From NCBI GenBank assembly GCA_021847175.1, contig JAJZUI010000004.1, positions 1 to 41,005 of the forward strand: a stretch of 41,005 nucleotides of DNA, given 5' to 3'. The first letter of the stretch is position 1; the number at the start of each line of letters is the position of its first letter. Below the pieces are notes generated by a model. It did not search any database. It saw only the letters and a list, made by a program, of their open reading frames with translations, and was not told where the DNA came from. Position numbers and translations under genes: made by a program. The stretch comes from Pseudomonadota bacterium. GTDB lineage: Bacteria; Pseudomonadota; Alphaproteobacteria; Acetobacterales; Acetobacteraceae. Below, piece after piece: positions 26,851 to 40,805 of the stretch.

Positions 26851-29691
26851 ATGCCACGCGATCAGATCGAGTATTCGCAGGCGATCGGCGACCAGGTCGC
26901 CTATACGACCTGCTATATGTGCGCCTGCCGGTGCGGCATCAAAGTTCACCTGAAGGACGGCAGGCTCCGCTACATCGAGGGCAACCGCGACCATCCCGTG
27001 AACCAGGGCGTGCTGTGCGCCAAGGGTTCGGCGGGAATCATGAACGTGCTGTCGCCGGCGCGGCTGCGCAAGCCGCTGAAGCGCGTGGGGCCAAGGGGCG
27101 CGGGCGAGTTCGCCGAGATCGAGTGGGACGAGGCGATGGCGATCGTGGCCGAACGGCTGCGGCGCATCCGCGAGACCGATCCGAACCAGCTCGCCTTCTT
27201 CACCGGGCGCGATCAGTCGCAGTCGCTGACCGGGTATTTCGCGCAGATGTTCGGCACCATGAACTTCGCGGCACATGGCGGGTTCTGCACCGTGAACATG
27301 GCCGCGGCCGGGCTCTATTCGGTGGGTGGCGCGTTCTGGGAATTCGGCGAGCCGGACTGGGACCATGCGAAGCTGTTCCTGATGATCGGGATCGCGGAGG
27401 ACCACGATTCCAACCCGATCAAGCTCGGGCTCGGCAAGCTCAAGGAGCGCGGGGCGAAGGTCGTCGCGGTCAACCCGGTGCGCACCGGCTATGCCGCCGT
27501 CGCGGACGAGTTCGTGGCCATCACGCCGGGCACCGACGGGCTGTTCGTCTTCGCGCTGATCCATTGCCTGCTGGAGAGCGGCAAGGTCGATCTCGAATTT
27601 TTGGTCCGCTACACCAACGCGCACTACTTGGTGATCGATGCGCTCGGCGCGGCGGACCACGGGCTGTTCGCGCGCGATGGCGAGGGCAGGGCGCTCGCGT
27701 GGGACCGCGCGACGGGAGCCGCGGCGCCCGCCGAGGACGCGGGTATCAATCCGCAGTTGCTGGGCCGCTATGCGCTGGCCGACGGGCGGGCGGCGCGGCC
27801 GGCGTTCGCGCTGTTCGCCGAGCGGTTCCTGGCACCCGAGTATGCGCCCGAGGCGGTGGCGGCGACCTGCGGGGTGCCGGCAGAGACGATCCGGCGGATT
27901 GCCGCCGAGATCGCCGAGATCGCGTTCAACCAGCCGGTGGTGCTCGAGCAGCCTTGGACAGACAGCAACGGGCGACGACACGAGACGATGGTTGGCCGGC
28001 CGGTGGCGATCCACGCGATGCGCGGGATTTCGGCCCATTCCAACGGGTTTCACACCTGCCGGGCGATCCATCTGTTGCAGATGCTCATCGGTGCCGTCGA
28101 TACGCCCGGCTCCTGGCGGTACAAGTCGCCCTATCCGAAGCCGATCCCGGCGGGGCCGGTGCCTGGCGGCAAGGTGCGCAGGGAAGACGGATCGCTGGCC
28201 ACGCCGCCGATCGGGTTTCCCAAGGGACCGGAGGACCTGCTGGTCGATGAAGCGGGCGAGCCGATGCGCATCGACCGCGCGTTTTCCTGGGAGGCACCGA
28301 TCGCGGTGCACGGGCTGATGCACCTCGCGATCGGGGAGGCGCATGCGCAGACGCACCAGAAGATCGACACGCTGATGATCTACATGGCGAATGTCGCGTG
28401 GAACTCGGCGATGAACCCGGGCGATGCGATGCAGATGCTGACCGACCAGAACGAGGACGGCAGCTATCGCATCCCGTTCGTCGTCCTGTCCGACGCCTTC
28501 TTCTCCGAGACCGTGCCCTACGCCGACCTCGTGCTGCCGGACACGACGTATCTGGAGCGTTACGACTGCATCTCGCTGCTCGACCGGCCGATCGGTTCGG
28601 CGCACGGACCGGCGGATGCGATCCGCGTGCCCGTGTTGAAGCCTGACCGCGATGTGCGGCCATTCCAGGACGTGCTGATCGACCTAGCGGGAAGGCTTAG
28701 GCTGCCGCATTTCGTCGACGCGGGCGGCAAGCCGCTCTATGCATCTTACGCCGACTACATCGTGCGCCACGAGCGCAAGCCTGGCGTGGGCCCGCTCGCG
28801 GGGTTCCGCGGCGCGGACGGGAAGGTAGTAGGTCGCGGTGCGCCGAACCCGGATCAGCTGCGCCGCTACGAGGCGAACCGCAGCTTCTGGCGCCACCACC
28901 TGCCGGCGGAGCAGCTCTATTTCAAGCATTCCAACCGCGCCTATCTCGAGGGTGCGAAGGCGATGGGGCTGATCGACGACGCGTCCAAGATCACGCTGCA
29001 ACTCTACAGCGAGACGCTGCAGAAATTCCGGCTCGCGGCCGAGGGGCATGGCGCAGTGCAGCCGCCCGAGCGGCTGCGCAAGCGTGTGGCGCGCTACATG
29101 GATCCGCTGCCGATCTGGTACACGCCGATCGAGGAGACGCTGGTGGACCGCGCGCGCTATCCGCTGCACGCGATCACGCAGCGGCCGATGGCGATGTACC
29201 ATTCCTGGGGCTCGCAGAACGCCTGGCTGCGCCAGATCCTCTCGGAGAACCGGCTCTACGTGAACCGCGAGACCGCGGCGCGCCACGGCATCGCGGACGA
29301 GGACTGGGTGCGCGTCGAGAGCCGCAAGGGGTCCGTGCGCTGCCGCGCACGGCTGATGGACAACCTCAACCCGGACACGGTGTGGACGTGGAACGCGATC
29401 GGCAAGCGTTCCGGCGCGTGGACGCTCGACCGGGACGCGCCGGAAGCGCGCACGGGCTTCCTGCTCAACCACGTGATCTCGGAGTATCTGCCGCCGGACG
29501 AGGAGGGCAGGCGGCTTTCCAACAGCGATCCGGTGACCGGGCAGGCGGCGTGGTTCGACCTCACCGTCAGCATCACGCGCTGCGAGCCCGACGAGCCGGA
29601 GGTGACCGCGCCACAGCCGGAGGGGCTCAAGGCGCCGTTCGAGACCAGGCATCCCGCGGTCCTGCGCTTCGGCGAGGAGGCGCGCCGGTGA
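26851..29691 (+). CDS. soeA: Sulfite dehydrogenase molybdopterin subunit SoeA
   Basis: A 946-residue molybdopterin oxidoreductase of the DMSO-reductase superfamily, similar to the SoeA sulfite-oxidising enzyme. It would oxidise sulfite to sulfate on the cytoplasmic face and pass electrons to SoeB. The [4Fe-4S] motif is CYMCACRCG (C21, C24, C28) with C56 in GVLCAKGSAGI. HGGFCTVNM places C146 as the probable Mo ligand. ATG 26851 lacks a strong ribosome site; the frame is open and protein-like for at least 25 more codons upstream, but without a standard start codon. The GTG of soeB overlaps its stop. Membrane association is via SoeC. Confidence 0.82.
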   Translation: MPRDQIEYSQAIGDQVAYTTCYMCACRCGIKVHLKDGRLRYIEGNRDHPVNQGVLCAKGSAGIMNVLSPARLRKPLKRVGPRGAGEFAEIEWDEAMAIVAERLRRIRETDPNQLAFFTGRDQSQSLTGYFAQMFGTMNFAAHGGFCTVNMAAAGLYSVGGAFWEFGEPDWDHAKLFLMIGIAEDHDSNPIKLGLGKLKERGAKVVAVNPVRTGYAAVADEFVAITPGTDGLFVFALIHCLLESGKVDLEFLVRYTNAHYLVIDALGAADHGLFARDGEGRALAWDRATGAAAPAEDAGINPQLLGRYALADGRAARPAFALFAERFLAPEYAPEAVAATCGVPAETIRRIAAEIAEIAFNQPVVLEQPWTDSNGRRHETMVGRPVAIHAMRGISAHSNGFHTCRAIHLLQMLIGAVDTPGSWRYKSPYPKPIPAGPVPGGKVRREDGSLATPPIGFPKGPEDLLVDEAGEPMRIDRAFSWEAPIAVHGLMHLAIGEAHAQTHQKIDTLMIYMANVAWNSAMNPGDAMQMLTDQNEDGSYRIPFVVLSDAFFSETVPYADLVLPDTTYLERYDCISLLDRPIGSAHGPADAIRVPVLKPDRDVRPFQDVLIDLAGRLRLPHFVDAGGKPLYASYADYIVRHERKPGVGPLAGFRGADGKVVGRGAPNPDQLRRYEANRSFWRHHLPAEQLYFKHSNRAYLEGAKAMGLIDDASKITLQLYSETLQKFRLAAEGHGAVQPPERLRKRVARYMDPLPIWYTPIEETLVDRARYPLHAITQRPMAMYHSWGSQNAWLRQILSENRLYVNRETAARHGIADEDWVRVESRKGSVRCRARLMDNLNPDTVWTWNAIGKRSGAWTLDRDAPEARTGFLLNHVISEYLPPDEEGRRLSNSDPVTGQAAWFDLTVSITRCEPDEPEVTAPQPEGLKAPFETRHPAVLRFGEEARR

Positions 29692-30419
29692 CGAGCCTTC
29701 CCGAGCCACAGCCGGGCGGCAAGAAGCTTGGCCTCGTTATCGACCTCGACACATGCGTCGGGTGCCATGCCTGCGCGGTGAACTGCAAGGAGTGGAACAC
29801 CGGCGGACACCACGCGCCGCTGCCGGACCACAACCCGTATGGCAAGGAACCGCACGGCGTGTGGTTCAACCGCATCCACTCCTACGAAGCGGGGTGCGGC
29901 AGCACGAGCAAGACGGTGAACTTCCCGCGCTCCTGCCTGCATTGCGAGACCCCGCAGTGCGTGACGGTGTGCCCGACCGGCGCGTCCTACAAGCGCGCAG
30001 AGGACGGGATCGTGCTGGTCAACACCGATATCTGCATCGGATGCAAGCTGTGCTCCTGGGCGTGCCCCTATGGCGCGCGGGAGTTCGACGAGGACCAGGG
30101 CGTGATGAAGAAGTGCACGCTCTGCATCGACCGCATCTACAACGAGGCGCTGCCCGAGGCGGAGCGCGAGCCAGCCTGTGTGGCGACCTGCCCCTCGCGG
30201 GCGCGGCACTTCGGCGACTTCAACGATCCCGACAGCAAGGTTTCGCGGCTGGTGGCGGAACGCGGCGGCGTGGCGCTGATGCCCGAACTCGGCTACGCGC
30301 CGGTCAACCGCTACCTGCCGCCGCGCAAGGCGACGATCCCCGCGAAGCCGCTCGAGCGGCAGCATGGCGGGAGCGTCAACGCGTTGCTGAAGATGCTCGA
30401 CATGGTGCTTTCGCGATGA
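29688..30419 (+). CDS. soeB: Sulfite dehydrogenase iron-sulfur subunit SoeB
   Basis: A 243-residue electron-transfer subunit of the DmsB/NrfC type. Four 4Fe-4S motifs can be counted: CVGCHACAVNC (C23, C26, C29, C33), CLHCETPQCVTVCP, CIGCKLCSWACP and CTLC with CVATCP. It carries electrons from SoeA to SoeC. The start is a GTG at 29688 in a GTGA overlap with soeA, preceded by GAGGAGG; longer frames upstream do not encode family sequence. There is no Tat signal, in keeping with the cytoplasmic orientation of Soe enzymes. Confidence 0.88.
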   Translation: MTSLPEPQPGGKKLGLVIDLDTCVGCHACAVNCKEWNTGGHHAPLPDHNPYGKEPHGVWFNRIHSYEAGCGSTSKTVNFPRSCLHCETPQCVTVCPTGASYKRAEDGIVLVNTDICIGCKLCSWACPYGAREFDEDQGVMKKCTLCIDRIYNEALPEAEREPACVATCPSRARHFGDFNDPDSKVSRLVAERGGVALMPELGYAPVNRYLPPRKATIPAKPLERQHGGSVNALLKMLDMVLSR

Positions 30420-31348
30420 CTCCGGCCGGCTCTGTCCTGCTGCTGACCACGCTGACCGGGTTCGGCTACGGGCTGATCGCCTGGCTGGGGACGCTGGCCG
30501 GGCTCGGCTTCCTGCCGGCGGCGCCGTTTTTCCTTCCGGTTTGCGTTGCGATCGGGCTTGGGTTTTCCAGCGCCGGGCTGGTGGCGTCCACACTGCATCT
30601 CGGGCATCCGGAGCGCGCCTGGCGGGCGTTCAGCCAGTGGCGTTCCTCCTGGCTTTCGCGCGAGGGCGTGGCGGCGATGGCGACGTTCCCGCCCGCGGTG
30701 GCTTTCGCGGGGTTGTGGTGGCTGCTCGGCGCGGGGGCGGTGGCGACGCGCGTCGCGGGGGTGGTCGCCGCGGTGCTGGCGTTCGTAACGGTGTTCTGCA
30801 CATCGATGATCTATGCGAGCCTCAAGCCGATACGGCAGTGGCACAATCCGCATACCGCACCGGATTACCTGATCTTCGCGGTATTCTCCGGCGCCGTGCT
30901 GCTCGCGGCGCTGTGGGCAATCTGGTTCGGCGCGGCGAAGGGGCTGGCGGTCGCGGCGCTGGTCGCGGCGCTGGCGGCGCTGGGCGCGAAACTGGCTTAT
31001 TGGCGCTTCATCGATACGCAAAAGCCGCTGGTCTCGCTCGCCTCCGCGACCGGGCTGTTGTCGTTCGGCACCGTGCAGCCGCTCGACCGGCCGCATTTCA
31101 CCGAGAACTATGTGCTGCGCGAGATGGGCTACCAGATCGCGCGCAAGCATGCGGTGAAGCTGAGGCGGATCGCGGCCGTGCTCGCGTTCCTGCTGCCGGC
31201 GTTGCTGGCCCTGGTGGCCTCGGAGCGTGTCCTGCCGGCGGTGGCCACGACTGCGGCAACGCTTTCGGCGCTGGTGGGACTGCTGGTGGAGCGCTGGTTG
31301 TTCTTCGCCGAGGCAACCCATGTCTCGACGATTTATTATGGGGTTTGA
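30416..31348 (+). CDS. soeC: Sulfite dehydrogenase membrane anchor SoeC (DmsC family)
   Basis: A 310-residue inner-membrane protein with about eight hydrophobic helices. STLHLGHPERAWRAFSQWRSSW (about residues 61-82) is highly characteristic of DmsC-type anchors. It docks the Mo and FeS subunits and passes electrons to quinone. ATG 30416 overlaps the soeB stop by 4 bases. The gene ends 62 bases before the convergent dehydratase-like gene. Confidence 0.86.
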   Translation: MTPAGSVLLLTTLTGFGYGLIAWLGTLAGLGFLPAAPFFLPVCVAIGLGFSSAGLVASTLHLGHPERAWRAFSQWRSSWLSREGVAAMATFPPAVAFAGLWWLLGAGAVATRVAGVVAAVLAFVTVFCTSMIYASLKPIRQWHNPHTAPDYLIFAVFSGAVLLAALWAIWFGAAKGLAVAALVAALAALGAKLAYWRFIDTQKPLVSLASATGLLSFGTVQPLDRPHFTENYVLREMGYQIARKHAVKLRRIAAVLAFLLPALLALVASERVLPAVATTAATLSALVGLLVERWLFFAEATHVSTIYYGV

Positions 31349-31410: not shown

Positions 31411-32934
<1,524 letters not shown>

Positions 32935-32948
32935 GCGAGCATCTCCCG

Positions 32949-35900
32949 TCAGGCAAACGCCAGGGCCGGTTGCGCTTGCGTCGCAGCCTCCGTCGCAGGC
33001 CGAGGCGACGCGCGCCGGTGATCCGCCAGGCGTTCCTGATAGCGACTCAGCGTGTAGGCAAAGGTCTGCACGCGGATCTTGATCGAGCCGCCCGGCTTGT
33101 TGGCGTCGAGGTCGTGCAGCGTGAGGCAGGGGGTGCGGCCGGCGGCGAGGATGCGCTCGACCAGCCCGTAGGCGGGCGCGTCGTTGCCGCATTTGAAGCT
33201 GGAGAGGTCCAGCACCGCGACGTTGGGGTGCCGCGCGGCGAACTTCGCCGCCCAGACCTTCTGCACGCTGGCGGCGGCATAGTTCTCCGGCCAGACGTCG
33301 CGCACGTCGAACACGTCGGCGATGCGGCGATCGGCGAGGTCGGCGCGGAAGAAGCGGGCGAGATATGCCTCGTCCCTGGGGATCGCGGCGATGCTGAGGA
33401 CCGGGTAGCCGAGCGCCTGGAACTCCTCCAGGACGCGGTGATTGAGGCCCGGGTCGGCATGGTAGGGACGGGCCAGGACAAGCAGCACGATCCCGTCGTC
33501 GCGTTCCGCCGCGTCCAGCATCCGCCGGCCGTGGCGCTGCAGCTCGGCCTCGAAGACCCGCTGCGCCTTGAACCCTTCCGCGACCGCCCAGGCGTTCTCG
33601 TGCGCGGTGATGCCGAGACGTTCCTGCCAGGTCTCCAGCAACTGCTGGCGCAAGAGGTGGGGCACCTCGAAGTCGAGCACGCCGGTGACGTAGCCGACGC
33701 CGGCGGCGGCGAAGCGATCCGTCTCCCTGGTCAGGGCCGCGGCGACCACTTTCGGGCTGCCGGCCACCACCGGGCAGCTCGACGCCGAGATGGTGTGGGA
33801 GACGAAGCTTTCGATGCTGTTTACCGCCGGAAACCAGATGTAGTCGAGCGGTTTGCGCGCGTGCGTGTGCGTCAGCAGGTCGTGCACATGCGCGAGCGCC
33901 ACCTTCGAGGGGAAGCAGGGGTCCACGGTGCCGTAGCGCCCGCCCCGCGCCCACAGATCGGCCGAGGTCTCGTCGGAGAACACGATCCGGCCGGATGGCA
34001 CGCCCAGCGCCTCCAGGTAGGCGCGCAGGAACGGTGCAAGGCGGTAGGCGTCGAGCACGCGCGGGATGCCGATGCGCAGCGCCGCGCGCCGTGCGGCCAC
34101 CGCTTCCGGGCTGCGGCTGAACGGGCGAAGCCCCGGCCGGCGCACGACCGGGCCATAGCCGAACCAGCGGCGGTGGACCGCAACGTCCTCCACCGGCGTG
34201 CCGGCCTCGGGCAGCGGCGCCGGCTGGCTGGCGCGGCGGAACGCGGCATCGGCCGCGAATTCCACCAGGTTCGGATAAAGTTCCTGCAGCCGCTTGCGGT
34301 TCTGGCTGACGGCGATCACCGCCGACTTGGTTTCGACCGTTCCCTTTTCGCAGGAGAATCCGGCGACGTAGCGGGCCGCGCGCCCGTCCGGGGTGCTGGT
34401 GTCGATGAAGGTGCGTGGGCACTCGTTGGCGCAGAAGCGGCAGCGCGTCGTCTCGTCGGTGCGCGTCCGGTAGCGCAGGTCGATCGCCGCCTGCAGGCCG
34501 ATGAAGCGCGAGTCCCCGCGCCGGCGGACGACGCGGCGCGCTTCCAGCGCCGCGCCCAGCGCGCCCGCCTCGCCGCAATGCGGGTGGACGATGATCCGCG
34601 CGCCCGGCACGCGCGCGGCGATGTAGTCCATCTGTGCCTTGACCGCGGCGAGATTGCGCTGCGTGCCGCCCTGCAGGACGAACACGCGGCCGAGCTCCGC
34701 CATGCGCGGGATCTGCACCACGTACTGCCAGATGTTCTTGGGCAGCACCGTCGCGAGCCCGGCGAACAGCTCGTCGCGGTTGAAGCCCTCCTTCTGGAAG
34801 TTCACACGGTCGGTGTCGAGGAACACCGCGCAGCCGTATGAGAAGCGGGGGCTGAGCTCGGCCTGGAAGGCATGCGCGGCGAAGTCCTCGATCGGCACGC
34901 CGAACTGGTCGGCCATCGATTGCAGCAGCATGCCATTGCCGGCGGAGCACTGGTTGGACAGGCGGAAGCCCTTGATCGTTCCGTTCTCGAGGAACAGCAC
35001 CTTGATGTCCTGGCCGCCGACGTCGCAGATTACGTCAACGTCCTCGCCGCAGCAGTGCTGCGCGCTCAGCATGTGCGCGACAGTCTCGACCAGGTTGGCG
35101 TCCGCGTGCAGGGCGGCATCGAGCACGTCGCCGGCATAGCCGGTGGCACCGAAGCCCAGGACATCGAGGCCGCAACCCTGGGCGGCGACACGGTCGCGCA
35201 GGCGCGCGAGGATCTCCTTGGCGTCCTGGATCGGGTTGCCACCGGAGATCACGTAGTCCTTGGCGACGAGCGCACCGTCCTCGTCGATCAGCACGGCCTT
35301 CGAGGTGGTCGAGCCGCCGTCGAAGCCGATATACCCAGCGACCCGGCCGCCGGGCTGAAGGCGTGGCGGCGAGAAGGGCGGCGGCAGGACGGCACGGGCA
35401 ACGCTGTCCGCGTCCTCGCCCGGCGCGAGCAACGGCGGCCCGGCCTGGTGCATCAGGCGCGCCTTTCGTCCATGGGCGATGAACGGCTCCAGCCCCTCCA
35501 GCCCGCGATAGGCGGGGCCATCGGCGGCGGACGCGGCGCCGAACAGCGCGGCGCCGGCGGCGGCGAAATATTGCGCGTTGGGCGGAACGAGGATCTGGGC
35601 ATCGGCATCGCCCTGCGCCACGGCGACGCCACGCTCGCGCCACAGCTCGGCGATGCGCCGTCGCCAGCTCTCCTGCAGGAACGGCAGGAAGGTGTTCGGC
35701 CCGCCGAGCAGCAGCACCTTTGGGTGCAGCGTATGGCCGCGAGTAAGCACGGTGAGGTTCTGCAGCACGATCGCGTCGGCGAGCGAGTTCATCACCTCCT
35801 CGGGCGGCACGCCGGACTTGAGCAGGTTGACGACGTCGGTCTCGGCGAACACGCCGCACCGCGCGGCGACGCGGTGCAGCCGGGCGGGATCGAACCGGAG

Positions 35901-36389
35901 CCGGCCGAGCGCATCCGATGACATGCCGACCTTCAGCATGCATTTGTCGATCGTGGCCCCGGTGCCGGAGGCGCATTTGTCGTTCATCGAGGTGATGACG
36001 CCGCGTTCCCCGGTGGCGGGATTGTTGCGAAAGAGGATGATCTTGGCGTCCTGGCCGCCGAGCTCGATCACGCTGCCGGCATCGGGGTAAAGCCGCTCCA
36101 CCGCGACGGTGACAGCGTTCACCTCCTGGACGAAGCGCGCGCCCAGCGGCTCGGCGAGCGGGCCGGCACCAGAGCCTGTGATGAAGGCGCGGACGGCCTC
36201 GGTACGCACGAGCCCGAGATCGCGCGCGATCGCCGCCAGCATCTCGGCGACCTTTTCGGCCTGGCGGGTGCCGTGGCGCTCGTAGCGTTGCCAGCGCAAC
36301 AACCCCGTCCGCGGATCAACGACGACACATTTGACTGTGGTCGAGCCGACATCGACGCCGATGAAAACGCCTGGGTCTGCTGCCTGCAT
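32949..36389 (-). CDS. Double acyl-CoA-dehydratase-activase (BadF/BcrA/HgdC-type) fused to DUF2229
   Basis: An 1146-residue fusion. Activase module 1 (about 8-290): GVDVGSTTVK, ELGGQDAKII, C139 in NDKCASGTG, C178 in ARCGVFAETD. Module 2 (about 352-620): GFDGGSTTSK, CDVGGQDIKV, C481 in NQCSAGNG, C520 in YGCAVFLDTD. A CRFCANEC stretch (C650, C653, C657) and a DUF2229/dehydratase-like domain (about 640-1120) with C825, C872 and C1067 follow. In the known HgdC homodimer each chain contributes two cysteines, 39 residues apart, to one bridging 4Fe-4S cluster. Here both modules keep the pair with exactly this spacing. ATP hydrolysis would drive low-potential electrons to the dehydratase domain or the partner. 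The ATG at 36389 gives a clean start. Confidence 0.85.
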   Translation of the reverse strand: MQAADPGVFIGVDVGSTTVKCVVVDPRTGLLRWQRYERHGTRQAEKVAEMLAAIARDLGLVRTEAVRAFITGSGAGPLAEPLGARFVQEVNAVTVAVERLYPDAGSVIELGGQDAKIILFRNNPATGERGVITSMNDKCASGTGATIDKCMLKVGMSSDALGRLRFDPARLHRVAARCGVFAETDVVNLLKSGVPPEEVMNSLADAIVLQNLTVLTRGHTLHPKVLLLGGPNTFLPFLQESWRRRIAELWRERGVAVAQGDADAQILVPPNAQYFAAAGAALFGAASAADGPAYRGLEGLEPFIAHGRKARLMHQAGPPLLAPGEDADSVARAVLPPPFSPPRLQPGGRVAGYIGFDGGSTTSKAVLIDEDGALVAKDYVISGGNPIQDAKEILARLRDRVAAQGCGLDVLGFGATGYAGDVLDAALHADANLVETVAHMLSAQHCCGEDVDVICDVGGQDIKVLFLENGTIKGFRLSNQCSAGNGMLLQSMADQFGVPIEDFAAHAFQAELSPRFSYGCAVFLDTDRVNFQKEGFNRDELFAGLATVLPKNIWQYVVQIPRMAELGRVFVLQGGTQRNLAAVKAQMDYIAARVPGARIIVHPHCGEAGALGAALEARRVVRRRGDSRFIGLQAAIDLRYRTRTDETTRCRFCANECPRTFIDTSTPDGRAARYVAGFSCEKGTVETKSAVIAVSQNRKRLQELYPNLVEFAADAAFRRASQPAPLPEAGTPVEDVAVHRRWFGYGPVVRRPGLRPFSRSPEAVAARRAALRIGIPRVLDAYRLAPFLRAYLEALGVPSGRIVFSDETSADLWARGGRYGTVDPCFPSKVALAHVHDLLTHTHARKPLDYIWFPAVNSIESFVSHTISASSCPVVAGSPKVVAAALTRETDRFAAAGVGYVTGVLDFEVPHLLRQQLLETWQERLGITAHENAWAVAEGFKAQRVFEAELQRHGRRMLDAAERDDGIVLLVLARPYHADPGLNHRVLEEFQALGYPVLSIAAIPRDEAYLARFFRADLADRRIADVFDVRDVWPENYAAASVQKVWAAKFAARHPNVAVLDLSSFKCGNDAPAYGLVERILAAGRTPCLTLHDLDANKPGGSIKIRVQTFAYTLSRYQERLADHRRASPRPATEAATQAQPALAFA

Positions 36390-36751
36390 ATCGATGCGAC
36401 GACTATGGAAAGCAAATGGATCGCGCTTACCCGCTAATCCCGTCCGAGCATGAAGTCCTTGATTCAGGTCAGTCCCCGGACCGCCGGCCAGGGGGCATGT
36501 CGTCGCCATGTTCGCCACCTGTAGCGCTGCCTGCCGCCGGGGACGCCAGACCCGCTGCTGCGGAGCGACAAAGACCCGTTGTCCTGGCAGGCCGGGATGG
36601 AATGGCAGACATTCCGGACACGGACGCGGTATATTCGCGCGACGCCTCGTTGACGCGGGCCGATGCGCTCGCCGTGTGCTGATGCTATTCGTTTTGATGG
36701 AAGAATCGCGTGTGGATGACACGACCCTTCCCGATGGGAGCGGAGCACGGC
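36390..36751. other. Divergent intergenic region between activase and histidine kinase
   Basis: 362 bases separate the two divergent genes. Short frames read through it in several phases but none shows a family motif or good ribosome site. It holds an FNR-like half-symmetric box at 36459-36472 and a TATATT at 36630-36635 that could be a -10 element for the kinase gene. No -35 partner, repeat or RNA structure is convincing. Confidence 0.5.
36459..36472. promoter_or_regulatory. FNR/FixK-like box upstream of the activase gene
   Basis: TTGAT-TCAG-GTCAG resembles the FNR/FixK consensus TTGAY-N4-RTCAA, with one mismatch in the right half (G for the last A). It lies about 76 bases upstream of the activase ATG. 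If centred at -41.5 it would put transcription start near 36424. A site for an oxygen-sensing regulator would suit an oxygen-sensitive ATP-driven reductase. Confidence 0.4.
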
Positions 36752-38368
36752 ATGCGGGCTAAGGATTGGGGGACGATCGAGGGCGGGGGCGGGGCCGGTG
36801 CGGGGGGCGCCGTAGAGGCTGGGCCCGGCGAGGAGTCCCTGTTCCTCTCCGCCGTTCCCGCCTCGCCGCTGCAACAGCGGGCGGCCGCGGTCTTCTTCCT
36901 GGCCTCGCTGCTGGGGTTCGTCCTCGCCACCCCCTTCGCCCGGGTATCGCTGCCGCGGCTGCCGGCCCTCGTCGCGATCGACGAGGCGGTGCTGATCACC
37001 GTCGATCTCATCACCATGGTCCTGCTCTACGGCCAGTTCCTCGTCGTCCGGTCGCGCGCGCTGCTTGTCCTCACCAGCGGATACCTGTTCGAGGCGCTGA
37101 TAACGTCGCTCCACCTCCTGACATTCCCGGGCGTGTTAGCGCCGACCGGCCTGCTCGGCGCGGGGTCCCAGACCACCGCGTGGCTCTACTGGTTCTGGCA
37201 CAGCGGGTTCCTGATCGCCGTGATCGGCTACACGCTTGTCGATGGCCCGGTACGCGGGCACCCCATACCTATCCTTTTCGGCGCCGTGCTGGCCGTGGCC
37301 GCCGCGGCGGGCGGCATGGCGCTGCTCGCCACGGCCGGCGCGCCGTACCTGCCCCGCATCATGGTGACCCTCAATCAAAGCGGGCGGCTCAACGTCCTTC
37401 CGGCATGGGGGGACACGGCCCTGGGGCTGCTCGCGCTTGCCCTGCTGTTGCGGGCGGGGCCGCGGACAATGCTCAACCTCTCGCTCATGGGGGTGGTGTG
37501 GGCGTCGATGCTCGACGTCATGCTGGCCGGGTTTTTCGCCACCGCCCGTTTCCAGGTCGCCTTCTATGTCGGGCGGGTCTTCGGCCTGCTTGCCTCCAGC
37601 CTGCTGCTCATCGCACTGGTGACGAACATCGGCCTGGTCTATCGCCGCGCGGTGGCTTCGGCGCGGGCCGCCGACGAGGCGAACCGGTCGAAGGGCCGCT
37701 TCCTCGCGGCGGCCAGCCACGACCTGCGCCAACCCTTGCAGTCGCTGTCGCTCTTCGCGGGAGCTCTGCGCGGCCTGGTCTCGGACGAGCGCGCCGCGAT
37801 GGCCGTCGCCGGGCAGGAACAGGCCGTCGCGACGATGACCGAGCTGCTGGACGCGCTGCTCGACATCAGCAAGCTCGACAGCGGCAAGGTCAACCCGCTC
37901 ATCACCGATGTCACCCTGGGCGAGCTGTTCGACCGGCTTCGCGTCGAGTTCGCCGGTCTCGCGGCGGCGAAAGGGTTGCGGTTCGAGGTAACCGGATGCA
38001 CAGATGTGGCGCGAAGCGATCCGATCCTGCTCGGCCGGATCCTGCGCAACCTCATCGGCAACGCCATCCGCTACACGGAGAGGGGCACCGTCCGCCTGGG
38101 GTGCGAGCGCGAAGGCAAGTCTCTGCGCATCGAGGTGGCAGACACCGGCATCGGCATCGGGCAGGAGGACATGCGACATATCTTCGAGGAATTCTACCAG
38201 GTTGGCGTGCCGCCGAATGCCACGCGCGAGGGCTATGGCCTTGGCCTCCCCTGGGCGCAGAGGGCGGCGCGGGTGCTCGGGAGCGAGATACGCGTCCGGT
38301 CGCGGCCTGGCGCGGGCTCGGTCTTCTCGATCGTGCTGACCGGCGGCTCGCCTGAGGGCGTGGCGTAG
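36752..38368 (+). CDS. Membrane-bound sensor histidine kinase (MASE4-like sensor)
   Basis: A 538-residue kinase. After a Gly/Ala-rich N-terminal 40 residues comes an integral-membrane sensor of about eight helices (45-295) resembling the MASE4 domain (VDLITMVLLYGQFLVVRSRALLVLTSGYLFEALI, ending in TNIGLVYRRAVAS). The phosphoacceptor H-box is ASHDLRQPLQ with H323. The HATPase domain has ADTGIGIG and GYGLGLPWAQRAA. The ATG at 36752 has GGAG six bases upstream; a GTG at 36710 and ATG 36734 are alternatives. It is followed directly by its probable response regulator. The ligand is unknown. Confidence 0.85.
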   Translation: MRAKDWGTIEGGGGAGAGGAVEAGPGEESLFLSAVPASPLQQRAAAVFFLASLLGFVLATPFARVSLPRLPALVAIDEAVLITVDLITMVLLYGQFLVVRSRALLVLTSGYLFEALITSLHLLTFPGVLAPTGLLGAGSQTTAWLYWFWHSGFLIAVIGYTLVDGPVRGHPIPILFGAVLAVAAAAGGMALLATAGAPYLPRIMVTLNQSGRLNVLPAWGDTALGLLALALLLRAGPRTMLNLSLMGVVWASMLDVMLAGFFATARFQVAFYVGRVFGLLASSLLLIALVTNIGLVYRRAVASARAADEANRSKGRFLAAASHDLRQPLQSLSLFAGALRGLVSDERAAMAVAGQEQAVATMTELLDALLDISKLDSGKVNPLITDVTLGELFDRLRVEFAGLAAAKGLRFEVTGCTDVARSDPILLGRILRNLIGNAIRYTERGTVRLGCEREGKSLRIEVADTGIGIGQEDMRHIFEEFYQVGVPPNATREGYGLGLPWAQRAARVLGSEIRVRSRPGAGSVFSIVLTGGSPEGVA

Positions 38369-38794
38369 ATGCCGGGCGGCTCGGGAAGCCCCGGTTCCGC
38401 CGGGCAACCACGGCCGCATGTCCTGGTGGTCGAGGACGACCCAGGCGTGCGCTCCACGATACGCCTGGTCCTGGAGATGCAGGGCTGCCGCGTCAGCACG
38501 GCGAGCAACCTGGCCGAGGCCCTCGACGAGGCGCGCGCGAATCGCGGGATCTCGGTGATGGTTGTAGATTACAACCTGCGCAACGACGAACGCGGCACCG
38601 ACGTCGTCCGGTCCGTCCGCACCATCCTCGGGCCAGGCGTCAAAGCGCTGCTGCTCACCGGCGACACCACGAACGCTGCGGACGAGGCCGCGCAGGGCCA
38701 CGGCCTGCCGATGCTTCGCAAGCCGATAAGTCTCGACCAGCTGTTGGATTTTGTGCGCGGCGCGCCGGGAAACGGCCGCGGGGATTTGTATTAG
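38369..38794 (+). CDS. Single-domain response regulator
   Basis: A 141-residue CheY-like receiver protein with no output domain. The acidic pocket is VEDD (D23, D24), the phosphoacceptor D67 in VVDYNL, the switch threonine in LLTGDT and the lysine in LRKPIS. ATG 38369 starts directly after the kinase TAG, so the two are coupled and form a two-component pair. With no DNA-binding domain it probably signals to another protein, for example a phosphorelay. Confidence 0.88.
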   Translation: MPGGSGSPGSAGQPRPHVLVVEDDPGVRSTIRLVLEMQGCRVSTASNLAEALDEARANRGISVMVVDYNLRNDERGTDVVRSVRTILGPGVKALLLTGDTTNAADEAAQGHGLPMLRKPISLDQLLDFVRGAPGNGRGDLY

Positions 38795-39515: not shown

Positions 39516-40805
39516 CTAGAAGGCGTAGCGCCAGGCCAGCGTGAAATCGTACTGGTACATCGACAGCTTGATCGTGCGTCCCGTCGGGCCGAGCCCAGGC
39601 ACCACCTCCGGCCCGCTCACGCTGTGCCAGGGCACGTAGGTGCCGGCGAAATCGATCGTCGAACGCTGGTTCACCTTGTAGCTGAAGCCCGCGGAGATGT
39701 GATCCGTCACGACGCCGGGGGCGAGGATGTTGAGCGTGACGTCGGAAGACGAGATCGGGTTGGTGTTGTGGGCGTAGCCGGCCCGCAGCGTCCAGGCCGG
39801 GTCCACGCGCCATTCCGCGCCGATCGCCACGACATCGACGTCGTGCCAGCCGAAGCCGGGTCCGTTGGCCGAGCCGAACGGCGCACCGACGAACGCGGAG
39901 GGGGTGCTGATCGATTTGATATCGGAATAGAAGATGTGCTTGTAGTCGAGCATCACCGTCCAGTCCGGCGCCGGATCCCAGGCCACGCCGACGCCGACAT
40001 TGGCGGGGATGTTGAACGAGCCGTGGTCCGCGAACAGGCCTTGGTACTTGTTGAACTTCGTCATCCAGATCGGCGTCGCGCCGGAGACGGAGAAGCGCAG
40101 CGTGGGGGTTACGCTCAGCAGCGCACCGACCCGCAGTCCGCCGCCGTAGGACATGGCCTGGCCGTTGTCGGTGAGGTTCGACGGCGAGCTGGAAAGGGGC
40201 GAGAACGCGCCAAGGCCATAGGCACTGAACATCTGCACCGCGAGGACCGGCGCGACGCCGATGGCGATGTTGCCAAACCGGCGGGCATAGCTCGGGCTGA
40301 TGAACATCTGGCTCAGGTTGACCCCGGCCTTGCCGCCACAGAAGACGCCGTCGCCGCCGGGACAGGCGGGGTTGGCGATGAAGCCCGCGTAGTCCGTGTT
40401 CATGCCGCCATTGCCGTAGAGCGCGATGCCCCAGGCGGAGTTCGCGTCGATCTGCTGCGAGTATGCGAAATTCGGGATGACGAAATTGTTCCAGGTGCTG
40501 GTGACGGTGCCGGGAGCAACGAAGCCGAAGCCTGGCGGCACGGAATACCGGCGATGCGGGGAGAACAGGGAGATGCCGATCTCGAACCCGGTGCCGACGG
40601 AGAGTAACCCCGCGGGGTTGGTCGCGACGGTCATCGCGTCTTCGGGATTGGCGGTTCCGGCGCCCGCCGTGGACTGCTGCACGGCGCTGTAGCCGTGCTG
40701 GAAATATCCCTCGGTCGCCCGGGCCTTCGGTCCGGCCCCGACCACGGCCGCAATCGTGGCCATTGCAACGACGACCGTGCGGCCGGCAAACCTCTTTCTT
40801 GTCAT
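39516..40805 (-). CDS. OmpP1/FadL-family outer membrane protein
   Basis: A 429-residue outer membrane beta-barrel that takes up hydrophobic molecules such as long-chain fatty acids or aromatic hydrocarbons. A signal peptide (1-30, ending KARAT) precedes EGYFQHGYSAVQQSTAGAGTANPEDAMTVATNPAGL, the FadL hatch with the NPA turn. It ends in the aromatic residue F (TLAWRYAF), as barrel proteins do. ATG 40805 follows GGGGAGGA. It is transcribed away from the sulfurtransferase end that follows at the right edge, on the same strand. Confidence 0.9.
   Translation of the reverse strand: MTRKRFAGRTVVVAMATIAAVVGAGPKARATEGYFQHGYSAVQQSTAGAGTANPEDAMTVATNPAGLLSVGTGFEIGISLFSPHRRYSVPPGFGFVAPGTVTSTWNNFVIPNFAYSQQIDANSAWGIALYGNGGMNTDYAGFIANPACPGGDGVFCGGKAGVNLSQMFISPSYARRFGNIAIGVAPVLAVQMFSAYGLGAFSPLSSSPSNLTDNGQAMSYGGGLRVGALLSVTPTLRFSVSGATPIWMTKFNKYQGLFADHGSFNIPANVGVGVAWDPAPDWTVMLDYKHIFYSDIKSISTPSAFVGAPFGSANGPGFGWHDVDVVAIGAEWRVDPAWTLRAGYAHNTNPISSSDVTLNILAPGVVTDHISAGFSYKVNQRSTIDFAGTYVPWHSVSGPEVVPGLGPTGRTIKLSMYQYDFTLAWRYAF

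Follow-up and report, generated by a model that had tools for sequence, protein, structure and literature searches.

Introduction

The anaerobic plasmalogen synthase PlsA/PlsR is composed of modules that have been named Act1, Act2, Red1 and Red2 (PMC12838417; PMC9702350). Its genes constitute a two-gene operon in C. perfringens and a single ORF in facultative anaerobes, and the expression of PlsA/PlsR in E. coli leads to the production of plasmalogens (PMC12838417), which are also reported to be made by Listeria (PMC9702350). The PlsA homologue Ger (glycerol ester reductase) instead generates alkyl ethers (PMC11150832), and both activities are not yet distinguishable by sequence (PMC13274423; PMC11868695). 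For the reaction, a scheme of two successive electron reductions with protonation and dehydration has been put forward (PMC8788747). A modified PlsA homologue of T. maritima, Tmari_0479 (PMC8788747), is one of the Ger enzymes that have been assayed in E. coli (PMC11150832).

Here, we describe a related locus of an alphaproteobacterium in the window, the whole stretch of 41,005 nucleotides that was analysed, with respect to its gene layout, domains, motifs, cysteine conservation, the fold class of its PlsR-like protein and its evolutionary placement. An earlier note on this DNA had recognized two activase ATPases in one chain followed by DUF2229, which is borne out by an ORF of 1146 residues at 32949-36389 matching PF01869 twice and PF09989. 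The architecture, which had been considered special, turned out to be standard for proteins of the PlsA/Ger type (PMC12838417, PMC13274423). From its sequence, we consider it probable that this gene and the adjacent one at 31411-32934 form an operon of the PlsA-PlsR type, likely encoding an ether-lipid synthase.

Organization of the locus

The encoded proteins share two activase modules, Red1 and Red2 with PlsA-PlsR of C. perfringens and with the single-ORF versions of Enterococcus, Lactococcus and Bifidobacterium, and their distribution over two adjacent genes resembles plsA-plsR of C. perfringens. Two PF01869 modules are also described for Ger of Desulfatibacillum alkenivorans and Thermotoga maritima (PMC13274423), which by this description are like the window protein. 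The locus contains the following features:

32949..36389, minus strand: PlsA/Ger-like gene, 1146 amino acids, with the order Act1, Act2, four-cysteine motif, DUF2229 (Red1)
35520..36374, minus strand: Act1 (activase module 1), residues 6-290, ATP motifs intact; based on Pfam PF01869, motifs and its own clade
34512..35348, minus strand: Act2 (activase module 2), residues 348-626; based on Pfam PF01869 and VIA structure matches
35973..35975, minus strand: C139, presumed ligand of the bridging cluster, invariant where present
35856..35858, minus strand: C178, presumed ligand of the bridging cluster, invariant where present
34947..34949, minus strand: C481, presumed ligand of the bridging cluster, invariant
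34830..34832, minus strand: C520, presumed ligand of the bridging cluster, invariant
34350..34442, minus strand: C650-x2-C653-x3-C657...C680, candidate extra [4Fe-4S] site, cysteines invariant in 19 of 19 proteins aligned
33390..34076, minus strand: DUF2229 (PF09989), Red1, residues 772-1000; based on Pfam
33189-33191, minus strand: C1067, downstream of DUF2229, which together with C825 and C872 makes up the three-cysteine site of Red1
31411..32934, minus strand: PlsR/Red2-like gene, 507 amino acids, with the three-cysteine site C85, C128, C405 and the clade-specific C125

The ATG of the second gene is found 14 bases past the stop codon of the first and is preceded by the sequence GGGAG, and for both reasons the two genes very probably belong to one operon. 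DUF2229 is a Pfam name covering one half of the catalytic part. The further cysteines of the protein include C825, C872 and C1067 as well as the four-cysteine motif from C650 to C680, which is located just before the domain and not inside it.

The window also harbours a molybdoenzyme of the DMSO-reductase family with Fe-S and DmsC-type subunits (26851-31345), whose genes are convergent with the pls genes, a MASE4-type membrane histidine kinase with a response regulator (36710-38791), divergent from them, and a FadL/TodX-type outer-membrane transporter for hydrophobic compounds (39519-40805). The molybdoenzyme, previously taken for a sulfite dehydrogenase, could not be confirmed as such, since it passes no NCBIfam family cut-off and its substrate (sulfite or other) is not fixed by family models. 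A functional link of the pls genes to either the molybdoenzyme or the histidine kinase is unsupported, as neither is kept in 18 relatives.

Activase modules

PF01869 covers two stretches of the 1146-residue protein (221 bits compared to a cut-off of 31.5 in Pfam). The ATP-binding residues, to which the earlier note had drawn attention, are found in both modules, with intact motifs in Act1 (GVDVGSTTVK / ELGGQDAK / GGP) and Act2 (GFDGGSTTSK / DVGGQDIK / GGT). As had been described, the bridging pairs C139/C178 and C481/C520 show a spacing of 39 in either module, and they are invariant in relatives with the exception of one truncated protein. When the residues of both modules were shuffled, 80 of 20000 trials reproduced this spacing in the two modules at once. 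A chance origin was rejected on these grounds, with conservation providing the stronger evidence.

Characterised activases had been portrayed as assemblies of two identical chains. This is not their sole form, since class I benzoyl-CoA reductases contain two different activase chains, BcrA and BcrD. In the host's own BcrA (C287/C326) and BcrD (C130/C169), the same spacing recurs. Class I enzymes (BcrABCD / BzdNOPQ / MbdONPQ) resemble the window system in their heterodimeric activase with one [4Fe-4S] and their heterodimeric HAD-fold reductase, but differ in their four chains, their CoA-thioester substrate and in activase modules belonging to neither the Act1 nor the Act2 clade. The 1146-residue protein stays below the class I equivalog cut-offs for BcrA (119.7 vs 578), BcrD (83.5 vs 312.85) and BzdQ (107.5 vs 380.2).

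Act1 and Act2 are only 27% identical. In module trees, the phylogenetic check that had been proposed, they constitute separate old clades with matching branching, which led us to reject a recent tandem duplication. Since both trees agree and the modules are distinct, the activase tandem is old and inherited. Because both modules look functional and both bridging pairs are kept, the two non-identical modules of one chain likely hold a single [4Fe-4S] cluster between them, so that the intramolecular, asymmetric dimer, which had been raised as a possibility, now appears likely.

A structure model of the 1146-residue protein (mean pLDDT 78, pTM 0.69) is in line with the assignment of Act2, which in VIA comparisons matches activators with Z 25.9 (4eht_B, rmsd 2.7, 256 aligned), Z 25.3 (1hux_A) and Z 25.7 (MbdQ, 9gai_D). 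Model confidence falls at nearly every cysteine loop, as reflected in low pLDDT.

Reductase halves

The 507-residue partner was modelled with a mean pLDDT of 78 and a pTM of 0.82. Its top structure matches are exclusively HAD, BCR and DCCP chains, with DCCP (7yyl_B, E 1.9e-5) as best match in Foldseek and 3o3m_B found by VIA with Z 9.8 (rmsd 5.1, 275 aligned), which identifies the protein as the reductase half expected of PlsR. On the basis of its model, the partner is thus assigned as the PlsR/Red2 half with HAD/BCR/double-cubane fold. Searches of Pfam and NCBIfam at E<=1 retrieved no match at all for this protein, curated HAD, BCR and DCC families included. DUF2229 is a Pfam family separate from the HAD, BCR and DCC families, and in searches with the 1146-residue model its structure matches were swamped by those of the activase modules. 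A comparison of the DUF2229 half with the PlsR half by hhalign was not significant (E 0.23), and profile searches of both reductase halves against PDB sequences returned no match.

Relationship to the PlsA/Ger family

Searches of plasmid records at the protein level identified full-length fused homologues annotated as 'acyl-CoA dehydratase activase', a term that is misleading for the Act1-Act2-DUF2229 layout. The domain order is equal over the full length in fused proteins of Collinsella, Haliovirga, Acetoanaerobium and Listeria, and a Fusobacterium gene pair is split exactly like the window genes. The fused Collinsella protein is 31% identical over the PlsA part (E 1.6e-136) and 27% over the PlsR part. 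We aligned the window clade with five PlsA-like proteins (Collinsella, Acetoanaerobium, Haliovirga, Listeria and Fusobacterium), which serve as proxies with Listeria as nearest stand-in for validated PlsA/Ger, and with two distant proteobacterial fused types. All homologues aligned keep 14 cysteines, which encompass the bridging pairs, the CX2CX3C...C motif and the three-cysteine sites of Red1 and Red2; the more distant fused types keep the four-cysteine motif with a different first spacing.

A tree of the full-length proteins recovers the window clade as monophyletic (100/100). The clade joins the PlsA-like proteins to the exclusion of the remaining fused types (100/100), a grouping that is repeated for both activase modules taken separately (98/94 and 97/94). 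Both ATP sites are kept in the window clade, whereas the Act1 motifs of the two distant types are degenerate, as in GCDLGKASVG and GICIGAATLS. These fused activase-activase-DUF2229 proteins of other Pseudomonadota, with their 14 cysteines kept and module 1 degenerate, represent a natural one-sided dimer. Since both distant groups have equal architecture, the layout alone cannot fix the substrate. As judged from these comparisons, the best reading of the 1146- and 507-residue proteins is that of a divergent addition to the known PlsA/Ger family, where the double-activase layout is standard.

A divergent clade of close relatives

A genome scan retrieved 18 close relatives with 48-65% identity, in MAGs labelled as Afifella, Gammaproteobacteria, Pseudomonadales, Spongiibacteraceae, Myxococcales, other deltaproteobacteria, Bacteriovoracaceae and Planctomycetota. 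By their sequences, they define with the window protein a coherent and divergent clade, with internal identities of 49-65% compared to about 30% to PlsA of the Firmicute type, that is scattered across Alpha- and Gammaproteobacteria, Myxococcota, Bdellovibrionota and Planctomycetota. In these relatives the four bridging cysteines (save for one protein truncated in module 1, which is without the first pair), C650/C653/C657/C680, C825/C872/C1067 and C85/C125/C128/C405 of the partner are invariant. The clade differs from PlsA-like homologues by an identity of about 30% for the 1146-residue protein (19-25% for the 507-residue protein) and by three extra invariant cysteines, of which C150 and C455 of the activases are absent and C125 of the partner is rare outside the clade, several PlsA-like homologues having Gly in place of C125. 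In view of these identities, the substrate may have changed. We found no experimentally tested member of the clade.

The partner follows in every relative's locus where the contig continues, with its frame broken into pieces in one of them; no other neighbouring gene is kept across the 18 loci, as expected for an enzyme working on ready-made lipids. In the Afifella MAG (L010, 413-5455), PlsA-like and PlsR-like parts form one continuous frame of 1680 residues. TetR genes near the pls genes at three loci of the clade, and beside the Collinsella gene, recall the TetR gene adjoining E. faecalis pls (PMC9702350); none adjoins the pls genes of the window. In two distant MAGs (L020, 8042-8926; L023, 11114-11902), homologous proteins that have no Pfam match, appear methyltransferase-like by eye and contain hydrophobic stretches directly adjoin the pls genes and are possible lipid-modifying partners. 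The copy in a record titled Bifidobacterium breve strongly resembles those from lake MAGs of proteobacteria, and the title or bin of this record is probably wrong.

Host genome

The host genome (3.70 Mb, 94.5% complete) contains one DUF2229 gene. PF09989 is rare in the class, with matches in 7 of 385 genomes and in one other of the 59 nearest relatives; control genomes with a match include Thermotoga maritima. Such rarity, along with a clade tree in which phyla are intermingled, would fit a horizontal spread, with MAG binning errors being possible. The CarF-type desaturase PF10520 gave no match, a result without weight as the control gave none either.

The presence of such a system in this genome had been regarded as unusual, a view that fails in light of a complete bcrDABC-oah-had operon and two COX1-type heme-copper oxidases. 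All four subunits of the class I benzoyl-CoA reductase, BcrD, BcrA, BcrB and BcrC, score over curated cut-offs, and their genes (contig C286, 3326-10639, together with oah and had, and with a 2-oxoacid:acceptor oxidoreductase gene nearby) indicate anaerobic aromatic degradation. Due to its bcr operon and oxidases, the host looks facultatively anaerobic, and a further ATP-driven low-potential donor is therefore no surprise.

Alternative functions

The reading that fares best among the rivals, a 2-hydroxyacyl-CoA dehydratase or CoA-ester reductase, whose activase pair would power a HAD/BCR-like reductase with a CoA thioester as substrate, we consider unlikely. It is in accordance with public annotation, with the match of the activase modules to HgdC/HadI and MbdP/Q, with the HAD/BCR/DCCP fold of PlsR and with a host that runs a CoA-dependent benzoyl-CoA reductase. 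Yet, the closest characterised proteins with the exact domain order use phospholipids, whose esters they reduce (PMC12838417, PMC11150832), so the dehydratase-like target that had been suggested is not supported. Similarly, no CoA-pathway gene is kept at the loci of the 18 relatives and the 507-residue protein lacks a HAD or BCR family match in Pfam and NCBIfam. HgdC/HadI with 2-hydroxyacyl-CoA dehydratase and DCCP:DCCP-R have the ASKHA activase fold and the reductase superfamily in common with the window system, but they differ in their homodimeric, separate and non-fused activator and in their substrates.

It is very unlikely that the system constitutes a double-cubane-type reductase of small molecules, similar to DCCP:DCCP-R with another physiological substrate, despite the closest structural match of the partner and its four invariant cysteines, one above the three of the wider family. 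The double cubanes of DCCP and BzdN need six cysteines (PMC11971306) and both reductase halves fall short of this number, with four invariant residues in Red2 and three in Red1, not counting the four of the motif ahead of Red1; moreover, DCCP is a homodimer with separate activase.

That the clade would use the same machinery to reduce a different ester, such as another lipid, a wax or an acyl ester, is highly improbable, since the long, well-supported branch (100/100, length 2.85), the clade-specific invariant residues and phyla unlike classical PlsA carriers are countered by the intact ATP sites of both modules, by the full set of 14 shared cysteines and by the lack of any accessory gene hinting at another substrate.

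Proposed mechanism and implications

We return to the synthesis of ether lipids, for which reaction and proposed mechanism are taken over from the literature on characterised relatives. What types of cluster the window protein contains, how electrons pass through it and which substrate and product it has is our inference. The system would act as ATP-driven, Fe-S-dependent and oxygen-sensitive reductase that converts an ester of membrane glycerophospholipids to an ether. A donor such as ferredoxin would feed low-potential electrons into the intramolecular [4Fe-4S] cluster of Act1/Act2, where ATP binding and hydrolysis would lower the potential and push single electrons to a reductase part. This part would consist of DUF2229/Red1 and, on a chain of its own, PlsR/Red2; both contain a presumed three-cysteine cluster site, and a further four-cysteine site is found ahead of Red1. 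Two sequential one-electron reductions of the sn-1 ester carbonyl, followed by dehydration, would yield a vinyl ether (plasmalogen), or a saturated alkyl ether if the enzyme behaves like Ger.

A more speculative proposal, to which we assign a rather low probability, views the proteins as a separate, horizontally spread PlsA-like clade whose hosts, Proteobacteria, Myxococcota, Bdellovibrionota and Planctomycetota, respire oxygen or are facultative. The fourth Red2 cysteine C125 and the extra activase cysteines C150 and C455 might then alter the clusters, such that the enzyme would tolerate more oxygen or use a different ester than known PlsA/Ger.

The ether-lipid pathway is poorly documented in the lineages carrying the window clade. 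If the assignment as ether-lipid synthase is correct, a lineage of alphaproteobacteria that has respiratory oxidases and degrades aromatic compounds anaerobically can probably make ether phospholipids under anaerobic conditions, which would add a source for ether-lipid biomarkers and provide a divergent enzyme for probing the distinction between PlsA (vinyl ether) and Ger (alkyl ether), as well as oxygen tolerance.
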